Assembly (NCBI GenBank): GCA_020060625.1
Contig: JAGUZU010000097.1
Location: 1 to 63,074, forward strand
From: Anaerolineales bacterium
GTDB taxonomy: Bacteria; Chloroflexota; Anaerolineae; Anaerolineales; Villigracilaceae
DNA: 63,074 bases
Reading direction: 5' to 3'
Positions 1 through 4,067 of this stretch are shown here, in pieces. The translations under genes were made by a program, and so were the position numbers. Within the stretch, counting starts at the first letter, position 1; each line of letters begins with the position of its first letter. Under the pieces are notes generated by a model. It was not told where the DNA came from, made no database searches, and saw only the letters and a list, made by a program, of their open reading frames with translations.

Positions 1-97
1 ATAGCGCGGCAAGCCGCAGCCAAAGTAAGTCGGATTGGCAATCCGACCTACGCGCAAAATCTTCGCGGTAGGCGCAGTTTTTACAGAGCAATACTAT
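1..97. repeat. Terminal dispersed repeat, left copy
   Basis: This 97-bp stretch recurs at the right edge of the window in the same orientation, differing only at positions 4 and 75. It contains an 8-bp stem (GTCGGATT / AATCCGAC with a 3-nt loop) set inside GTAAG...CCTAC, and a short GCGGC/GCCGC palindrome near its start. Both window ends lie in it, so it is probably a multi-copy genomic repeat at which assembly ended. The two mismatches argue against a simple circular overlap. Confidence 0.85.
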
Positions 98-123
98 AAC
101 CGCCTCTTTTTTTGCGTCCAATG

Positions 124-139
124 ATAGACAATCATCTAT
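124..139. promoter_or_regulatory. Operator-like palindrome O1 upstream of the Cys-rich peptide
   Basis: A perfect inverted repeat, ATAGA-N6-TCTAT, lies 17 bp before the start codon of the small Cys-rich ORF. The same pattern recurs at 266-281 before arsM. The arrangement resembles binding sites of ArsR/SmtB-type repressors, which often carry ATA...TAT half-sites. No arsR gene is present in this window, so the regulator is inferred. Confidence 0.6.
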
Positions 140-156
140 TTGAAAGGAGAGAAGCC

Positions 157-234
157 ATGAACGAACTTCCCGTCAACCAAGGTACATGCTGTGAAGACGA
201 ATGCTGTGAAACCGGCGTCTGTGATTGCTGCTAA
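157..234 (+). CDS. 25-residue cysteine-rich peptide beside arsM (possible arsenic/metal-binding peptide)
   Basis: This short ORF has a good ribosome binding site (AAAGGAGAG at 143-151) and encodes 25 residues, of which 7 are Cys. They lie in the C-terminal half as CC-x3-CC-x4-C-x-CC and end at the C-terminus. It precedes arsM by 61 bp and sits behind operator O1. ArsM itself carries a related CC-x4-CC cluster near its N-terminus. I do not recognise a family. A metallothionein-like thiol peptide that binds trivalent arsenic or passes it to ArsM is a reasonable inference; translation is likely but unproven. The longest frame for arsM would overlap it, which is one reason to place the arsM start downstream. 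Confidence 0.55.
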   Translation: MNELPVNQGTCCEDECCETGVCDCC

Positions 235-265
235 ATCCGCTCGCAAAAATTTTTTATCAAAATCT

Positions 266-281
266 ATAGACAAATATCTAT
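266..281. promoter_or_regulatory. Operator-like palindrome O2 upstream of arsM
   Basis: A second perfect ATAGA-N6-TCTAT palindrome lies between the Cys-rich peptide gene and arsM, 14 bp before the arsM start and directly before its AAGGAGA ribosome binding site. Bound repressor here could block a second promoter or the transcript reading through from O1. Two copies in about 160 bp suggest one regulator controlling both genes. Confidence 0.6.
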
Positions 282-295
282 ATAAGGAGAACCCG

Positions 296-1090
296 ATGAC
301 CCAATCCCCCACCCCCATCCATGACGTAGTCCGCGAGCATTATGCGGAACGGATCAAAAACTCCGCCTCGTGTTGCGGACCTTCGGATTGCTGCACACCC
401 GAAAACAATCTCTACCCGACAGATCTACTTGCCACCCTCGACGGTGAAGCGCCTGTCAGCTACGGCTGCGGCGACCCGATCACGCTGGCGTCGCTGGAAC
501 CCGGTCAGACCGTGCTGGACCTCGGCTCCGGCGCGGGACTCGACTGCTTCTTTGCCGCGAAAAAAGTCGGCGAGAGCGGAAAAGTCATCGGCGTGGATAT
601 GACCCCGGAGATGATCGAACGCGCCAGGTCCGGCGCGAAGCGGATGAACCTCACGAACGTCGAATTCCGCCAGGGATTCATCGAAGACCTGCCCGTCGAA
701 TCCGGCACGGTGGATGTCATCGTCTCAAACTGCGTCATCAACCTCTCGCCGGATAAATCCAAAGTGTTCAATGAGACCTTCCGCGTATTGAAGCCCGGCG
801 GCAAACTGGCGGTTTCGGATATCGTCACCGACGGCGAACTGCCGGATGAAGTGAAGAAAAGCCTGAGCGCGTGGGCGGGATGCGTGGCAGGCGCGGTGGA
901 AGCGAAGGATTACACCGCCATGATGGAAGCGGCAGGCTTCACCGATATTTCCATCAAGCCGGTTTTCTTCGACAAGCAAACTGTGGACGACGCGCTGGGT
1001 GAAATGGAACTGGACACAAGCAGCTATTCGAAGGAAGATGTTTACAAGGCAGTGTACAGCGCAAAGATCACAGCGTACAGACCCGCATAA
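296..1090 (+). CDS. arsM: Arsenite S-adenosylmethionine methyltransferase
   Basis: The product methylates trivalent arsenic using SAM, a cytoplasmic detoxification step. The protein is 264 residues. SAM motif I reads VLDLGSGAGLDCF at about residues 73-85, and the ArsM signature SNCVINLSPDK follows at 144-154. The three Cys expected for As(III) coordination appear as C58, C146 and C196. An extra CC-x4-CC cluster at residues 26-33 is typical of many ArsM proteins. The frame is open back to 191, but the start at 296 has an AAGGAGA ribosome binding site 5 bp upstream. The longer version would overlap the small peptide gene and translate operator O2. A strong terminator follows. Confidence 0.93.
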   Translation: MTQSPTPIHDVVREHYAERIKNSASCCGPSDCCTPENNLYPTDLLATLDGEAPVSYGCGDPITLASLEPGQTVLDLGSGAGLDCFFAAKKVGESGKVIGVDMTPEMIERARSGAKRMNLTNVEFRQGFIEDLPVESGTVDVIVSNCVINLSPDKSKVFNETFRVLKPGGKLAVSDIVTDGELPDEVKKSLSAWAGCVAGAVEAKDYTAMMEAAGFTDISIKPVFFDKQTVDDALGEMELDTSSYSKEDVYKAVYSAKITAYRPA

Positions 1091-1103: not shown

Positions 1104-1140
1104 AAAAAAACGGACGGCGATTCTCGCCGTCCGTTTTTTT
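1104..1140 (+). terminator. Rho-independent terminator after arsM
   Basis: A perfect hairpin with arms AACGGACGGCGA and TCGCCGTCCGTT separated by TTC is followed by a run of T. It lies 15-50 bp after the arsM stop and ends the arsenic transcript. Confidence 0.9.
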
Positions 1141-3440: not shown

Positions 3441-4067
3441 CTATTTTCTCCCAAAATCGGCGGGGTTTTCGCCCCAAAGTTCCGTATTCCACTTTAATAC
3501 TTTGTCTTCGGGGAGTTCGTTTTCCGCCAGCCAGTTCTCCGCGCTGTGGATAATCGCGAACAAAACCGCATTTTTCGGCGAATGTTTCAAACGCGTCTTG
3601 CATTCGCCCGTGCATACCCATGCAATGGCGTTCTCCGAGTCGGAATAGATCGGGATGTGCATGTTATGTTTTGCCTGCCACGTCAACGCATGGACGATTG
3701 CAAGGAACTCCCCCACATTATTCGTTCCCTGGGCATACGGACCGGCGTGAAAAATTTCCTCGCCCGTTTCCGTATTCACGCCGCGATATTCAAGGTTGCC
3801 CGGCGAGCCGCTGCAGGCGGCGTCCACACAGATGGACGGCAGGATCGGTTTGACACTCGCATCCCTCCACCTCCCGCTTGTGGATGACTTTCCCTTGTAA
3901 TCGTCGTAGTCGGCAAGGTATGCGGCGTCCGCCTCGGTTCTGCTCTCGAACGCTTTGAACTGCGCCCCGACAAAGCCTTTCACCTGTTTTTCGCATTCCA
4001 CCCAGGACGTGAAAACACCCGTCCTGCGCCCTTTCCATACGACGTAATACTTCTGCTTTTTCGGCAT
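3441..4067 (-). CDS. Viroplasmin-domain ribonuclease H (type I)
   Basis: The protein is 208 residues. It begins with a viroplasmin / N-terminal RNase HI hybrid-binding domain (about residues 4-50, YYVVWKGRRTGVFTSW). A type I RNase H domain follows, with acidic residues at about D82, E120, D143 and D204. It should cleave the RNA strand of RNA-DNA hybrids. It lies in a minus-strand run with the CBS protein upstream (21-bp gap) and the isochorismatase-like gene immediately downstream. Confidence 0.88.
   Translation of the reverse strand: MPKKQKYYVVWKGRRTGVFTSWVECEKQVKGFVGAQFKAFESRTEADAAYLADYDDYKGKSSTSGRWRDASVKPILPSICVDAACSGSPGNLEYRGVNTETGEEIFHAGPYAQGTNNVGEFLAIVHALTWQAKHNMHIPIYSDSENAIAWVCTGECKTRLKHSPKNAVLFAIIHSAENWLAENELPEDKVLKWNTELWGENPADFGRK

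Follow-up and report, generated by a model that had tools for sequence, protein, structure and literature searches.

Bacterial metallothioneins of the SmtA/BmtA type are Cys-rich metal stores about 50 residues long; they have His ligands and a fold resembling a zinc finger, and their genes lie beside that of an ArsR/SmtB-family repressor. ArsD, a metallochaperone of about 120 residues with a thioredoxin-like fold, binds As(III) via Cys pairs and serves ArsA, and phytochelatins are acidic, Cys/Gly-rich arsenite chelators made enzymatically from glutathione. The metallothioneins of Neurospora crassa and Agaricus bisporus have ~25 residues and CxC spacing. According to one paper, two small fungal copper metallothioneins have seven cysteines, and such seven-Cys proteins bind about six Cu(I) (PMC13107397). 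For the ars operon, the abstract of another reports that no specific sequestration genes were found within it (PMC12093948).

A short Cys-rich gene before arsM

The window (the whole 63,074-nucleotide stretch analyzed, from an Anaerolineales bacterium) contains, at 157-234 on the forward strand, an ORF of 25 codons plus TAA whose product, MNELPVNQGTCCEDECCETGVCDCC, has 25 residues and seven Cys arranged as CC-x3-CC-x4-C-x-CC. The ORF was read from the sequence and is supported by a family alignment and by coding selection. A strong ribosome-binding site, AAAGGAG (143-149, forward strand, read from the sequence), stands 7 nt before the ATG, and similar sites precede the peptide in relatives. 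ORFs with at least six Cys and at least 22% Cys number one in the window vs. 0.04 per dinucleotide shuffle, and 100 such shuffles of the window gave no Cys-rich ORF with a ribosome-binding site.

From the peptide's stop codon to the start of arsM the gap is 61 bp. The latter gene, encoding As(III) S-adenosylmethionine methyltransferase, occupies 296-1090 on the forward strand (NF008823, 319.8 bits vs. a cut-off of 263) and is followed by a probable intrinsic terminator (1110-1140, forward strand), an inverted repeat and T run recognized by eye and unscored. Motif searches of the window and genome placed one ars operator before the peptide (ATAGACAATCATCTAT, 124-139, forward strand) and a second before arsM (ATAGACAAATATCTAT, 266-281, forward strand). 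The core ATAGACAANNNTCTAT, with up to two mismatches allowed, occurs in the window at these positions only (four strand-wise matches, equal to two sites, vs. 0.40 expected). The exact operator ATAGACAAHHHTCTAT has two copies in the 3,668,499-base genome, both at this locus; the genome-wide count took exact matches, and the search with up to two mismatches covered the window. A one-mismatch copy stands before arsR on contig C54 of the same genome (L039:1420-1435).

Because the contig (C37) begins where the window begins, arsR is invisible in it except for the stop codon (2-4, forward strand), the gene body lying at the end of C54 (G000:C54); the final 98 bases of C54 match window positions 1-98 exactly. 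The C54 arsR encodes the protein MKFDPVLFAKAIADETRQKIMSECCCCWLSVNE..., and in the ArsR sequences inspected a run of 2-4 Cys lies near the N-terminus. Gene order in relatives supports the join, which is very probably genuine on a comparison of overlaps that covered the C54 end only. As in relatives, the arrangement would then very probably read operator - arsR - operator - peptide - operator - arsM. Within the shared 98 bases lies an inverted repeat, GTCGGATTGGCAATCCGAC, a possible cause of the break in the assembly.

Conservation and coding selection in relatives

A nine-row peptide profile gave matches in 45 of the 152 genomes of the bacterial family at E<=1, and the peptide was verified in 26 of them, the window's own included; these have a best match of E<=0.025 and all carry the motif. 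The figure of 26/152 is a lower bound, with weaker matches, two of them full-length (G497, G498), left outside the count. A single-peptide search of 396 genomes of the class also returned 26 genomes at E<=1, but with much noise: true relatives, at E 0.08-0.41, were interspersed with presumed chance matches and partly ranked below them, and G320, G027 and the peptides downstream of arsM were missed. Three weak matches from the same genus start with M-x-ELP-[VI], are Cys-rich, and all lie between arsR and arsM. Our first ORF filter missed G320, where the peptide sits inside a longer frame, and was then changed; a profile (A3) missed the true G298 peptide, so absences based on profiles are not firm. 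Matches beyond the family, in further classes and phyla too (G019, G026, G150, G247, G553, G704; E 0.017-0.09) were treated as probable chance, and a plasmid search with one member gave no match.

Among the best 80 of 346 confirmed ArsM loci in named genomes, the peptide is present in 27, before arsM in 23 and after it in four (L138, L145, L153, L166); it is likewise downstream of arsM in G404. All 27 belong to the 63 loci with an ArsM identity of at least 67%, and no peptide was found in the remaining 17, where identity is below 67%. Since the peptide was not found in 53 of the 80 loci, arsR-arsM works without it. The 80 loci (612,871 bases, both strands) hold 33 ORFs with at least six Cys and 22% Cys, 27 of which are members of the peptide family, all on the arsM strand. 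On an ArsM tree of 64 rows, whose bootstrap has not settled, the peptide appears in both large branches, with gaps; the rows with the peptide upstream need six changes vs. 8.2 in shuffles (26/500 as low), and the four with the peptide downstream, including the divergent L166, form one fork (90/77). We read this distribution as that of an old gene probably lost repeatedly, with exchange possible.

The usual position of the peptide is between arsR and arsM. An arsR gene adjoins arsM or the peptide in 26 of the 27 peptide loci, the exception (L166) being truncated by the end of its contig; among the 26 peptide genomes it does so in 24, L096 and the window being truncated too (the window's arsR is on C54). 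Where the peptide precedes arsM (23 loci), the arsR-arsM gap is about 240-390 bp, and longer where genes are inserted (L109, L121); without the peptide it is usually 55-97 bp and in some loci 130-230 bp, five of the latter holding other small ORFs. A permease that we take to be of the ArsP type separates the peptide from arsM in L097 and L109. In L121, two inserted genes, by eye flavodoxin-like and cytochrome-like, lie between two copies of the peptide plus hairpin (2170-2304 and 3775-3950), the second peptide copy being decayed.

Other small ORFs occupy the arsR-arsM slot. One kind encodes a hydrophobic stretch followed by CxxCxCK (e.g., MEKGILYLLTNGVSLCGFCKCKRSQGRSK; L150:3867-3992, L151:3846-4004, L159:3903-4004, and L061) and overlaps the arsM start in L151 and L159. 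Another, a probable membrane peptide of 43 residues (MYAEILLIIGIPAILFGLARSTEKVLDIRQ...), is found in L105 and L106 (3821-3982 in both), which are among the three ArsM loci that most resemble the window. An ORF of ~105 residues with a CC motif (e.g., ...IAEFIGRENVCCSFLRFQLEVE...) lies just before arsR in L091 (811-1122, reverse strand of the locus) and recurs upstream of arsR in L048, L051 and L065. Two genomes have an additional ArsM-like gene containing a single in-frame TGA (G392:C50:602-1150, G478:C17:2785-3270); the products are perhaps selenoproteins of the NCBIfam ArsM-UU families.

In three genomes (G474, G477, G479) the peptide follows arsR and is succeeded by an inverted repeat, with no arsM in the flank examined. 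ArsM was not found in these genomes at E<=1e-40, nor was ACR3, the pump that the search there covered, at E<=0.001; at 95-96% completeness, true absence is likely. ACR3 was present in eight of 14 genomes searched, one of the eight (G061) giving a partial match below the cut-off, and lies at C63 in the window's own genome; among the genomes with arsM, G306, G340 and G298 likewise gave no ACR3 match.

Of the 23 loci where the peptide is upstream of arsM, 19 have an operator-like site ahead of the peptide; between arsR and arsM, 14 of the 23 have two such sites and nine have one. With an ars operator directly upstream of the peptide in the window as well as in those 19, the peptide is predicted to be under ArsR control, ArsR binding itself being a prediction from the operators.

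Beginning 7-19 nt past the peptide's stop codon, a stem, CTCTGTTC...GAACAGAG, is present in 23/23 upstream-type loci of the named set (L104-L163); the hairpin has 11 bp and an A/T-rich tail, and L057 holds a variant. A model built from 12 of the 24 upstream-type loci finds all 24, though L136 (E 0.17) and L057 (E 0.08) score low, and has no match in the 53 peptide-less loci, the four loci with the peptide after arsM, L091, L096, L098, L099, or the window, where comparison with relatives shows an A/T-rich spacer without the hairpin (235-265, forward strand). In a 12-sequence alignment, four of 11 pairs changed on both sides; eight of the 33 matches are the same hairpins on the other strand, so covariation counts are inflated. 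The distance from hairpin to T run is unlike that of a standard terminator, and Rfam gave no match in the five hairpin loci searched. A possible role of the hairpin is to determine the amount of peptide message relative to that of arsM.

The 32 distinct members are 22-29 residues long and vary in length and Cys spacing. Seven Cys occur in 25 members, six in five and eight in two; the variance of this number is 0.22 vs. 5.1 for a binomial, a figure whose weight is lowered by shared descent. A terminal CC is found in 31/32, and equally many fit M-x-[EDTR]-L-x-[VIM], x being optional. Overall composition is 26.5% C, 15.9% G and ~20% D+E; K, R or H occur in only three members (His is 0.1% of residues) and aromatics in six. 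This is metallothionein-like composition: short, 20-30% Cys, few aromatics or His, and a near-constant Cys number (6-8 in 32/32). The conserved N-terminus, M-x-[ED]-L-x-V, contains no thiols; chelation does not explain it, and it hints at a partner.

In ten hand-picked pairs of near relatives, synonymous changes made up 0.45 of all changed codons vs. a mean of 0.14 under random change, a value reached in 0/2000 simulations (the null being uniform base changes). Differences at the three codon positions numbered 30, 34 and 64, third positions thus contributing 64/128, and pooling 23 overlapping pairs gave a pN/pS of 0.31. The pair of the window and L104 alone has no third-position excess (6, 7, 5), and L107 and L119 differ by two changes, both at first positions; therefore, the coding signal comes from the family and not from the window's nearest relative.

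No NCBIfam or Pfam model matched the window peptide at E<=1, and none of the 32 members matched a metallothionein model (Pfam, E<=1; none in NCBIfam) or the ArsD domain of Pfam. The sole Pfam family touched, Conotoxin_I2 (4/32 members, best E 0.045), was taken as a chance match of Cys. A search of PDB chains with the family profile gave nothing at E<=1. In the literature on arsM and ars operons, on metallothioneins, and on Villigracilis and arsenic, no such peptide appeared in titles or the openings of abstracts, subscription papers and preprints being outside this scope. At this size the peptide gene escapes ordinary gene callers and may be overlooked in routine annotation.

We conclude that the ORF is a genuine, conserved gene, present in a group of Chloroflexota, and that it belongs to a new, previously unannotated small-peptide family. 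A first-pass annotation of this DNA had described the ORF, its Cys pattern, ribosome-binding site and 61-bp distance from arsM exactly as we find them, and had reported identical operators before the peptide and arsM, both of which are there. It had also let its reading hang on whether relatives sharing the arsM locus keep the ORF and its Cys, which they do, ars context included, and had proposed comparing synonymous with nonsynonymous change, which reveals clear coding selection across the family.

A proposed arsenite sink and its alternatives

We propose, with a probability of roughly 0.6, that the peptide is a miniature, metallothionein-like arsenite sink controlled by ArsR, with As(III) as its presumed ligand. 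ArsR would occupy the operator at 124-139 and be released once As(III) binds it, as the operator copies and the known behavior of ArsR suggest. The cell would then make an acidic peptide whose seven thiols chelate As(III) in trigonal AsS3 units; each peptide would probably carry two, six thiolates being enough for two such sites. Pending methylation by ArsM or export through an efflux pump, free arsenite would thereby be buffered, and in genomes without ArsM or a pump the peptide may itself be the response. We infer sequestration of As(III) because the peptide is rich in thiols, sits among ars genes, and persists beside arsR where no arsM was found. A more specific form of this proposal, to which we give about even odds, is a dedicated arsenic metallothionein of the ars operon, 22-29 residues long, with seven thiols, ArsR-induced and binding two As(III), possibly the sole ArsR output where ArsM and ACR3 are missing, and a gene-encoded counterpart of phytochelatins.

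That the peptide instead serves ArsM alone, as a carrier presenting As(III) or as a thiol co-substrate in catalysis (an encoded stand-in for glutathione), is unlikely. Its place before arsM in 23 of the 80 loci (two with genes between) or behind it in four would suit such a role, as would the failure to find a PF04262-type glutamate-cysteine ligase in 31/31 genomes, a weak test that covered one ligase type and was positive in 2/14 controls. However, G474, G477 and G479 keep arsR-peptide with no ArsM found, which argues against an obligate partner, and no peptide was found in 53 of the 80 ArsM loci. The first-pass annotation had suggested either a metallothionein-like store or a hand-off to ArsM: the store is the better-supported half, though inferred, and the hand-off is weakened by these same three genomes. 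It had also likened the peptide to the CC-x4-CC cluster of ArsM; the cluster (CCGPSDCC) is present at the ArsM N-terminus, but the likeness is uninformative and was dropped, since the ArsMs from loci of G271, G213 and G223, where no peptide was found, carry a comparable double CC.

Arsenic is the favored ligand, copper or another soft metal a less likely one. A peptide binding Cu(I), Zn, Hg or Sb, with the ars context reflecting shared control, seems rather improbable. The seven-Cys fungal metallothioneins bind about six Cu(I) (PMC13107397), so Cys number alone cannot choose arsenic over copper. Nevertheless, the recurring neighbors are arsR and arsM, plus the presumed ArsP-type permease in L097 and L109, and an unsystematic look by eye at the nine loci with listed ORFs noticed no copper, zinc or mercury genes.

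Regulation of arsM by attenuation, with the ORF as a leader peptide read through its run of Cys codons, was considered seriously for those codons and for the conserved hairpin that follows the small ORF before arsM in 24/24 upstream-type loci; we rejected it on position and consider it very improbable. The ORF is downstream of arsM in L138, L145, L153, L166 and G404, no arsM follows it in three genomes, the window has no hairpin, and the protein is conserved while synonymous sites drift. The downstream positions, along with arsR-peptide in genomes without ArsM or ACR3 found, speak against a leader peptide as well as against obligate partnership with ArsM; they favor an ArsR-controlled sink.

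A modified natural product, with the ribosomal peptide as precursor, MNELPV as leader and a Cys-rich core, has a slighter chance still: the N-terminal stretch is conserved and the Cys/Gly core variable, and a protein that looks radical-SAM-like by eye lies about 1.6 kb upstream in L123, but no such enzyme was noticed by eye in the other eight listed loci and the leader is just 6-10 residues. A chance ORF is refuted by conservation in relatives, shuffle counts, coding selection, and the clustering of such ORFs in the family.

Relation to known metal-binding peptides

If the peptide binds As(III), as the sink reading holds, the gap left by the lack of sequestration genes in the ars operon (PMC12093948) would be filled by a micro-gene. 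It would be a very small, genetically encoded arsenite chelator that is easily synthesized and tested, and it would give reason to seek similar micro-genes in other metal operons. Compared with SmtA/BmtA-type metallothioneins, the peptide is shorter (22-29 residues), has almost no His, and matches no metallothionein model. Like ArsD, it is encoded in ars operons, but it has no match to the ArsD model; unlike phytochelatins, it is gene-encoded. It shares seven Cys with the fungal copper metallothioneins of Neurospora crassa and Agaricus bisporus (PMC13107397), whereas the peptide has vicinal CC pairs and a CC end, and the fungal proteins are eukaryotic and bind Cu(I).
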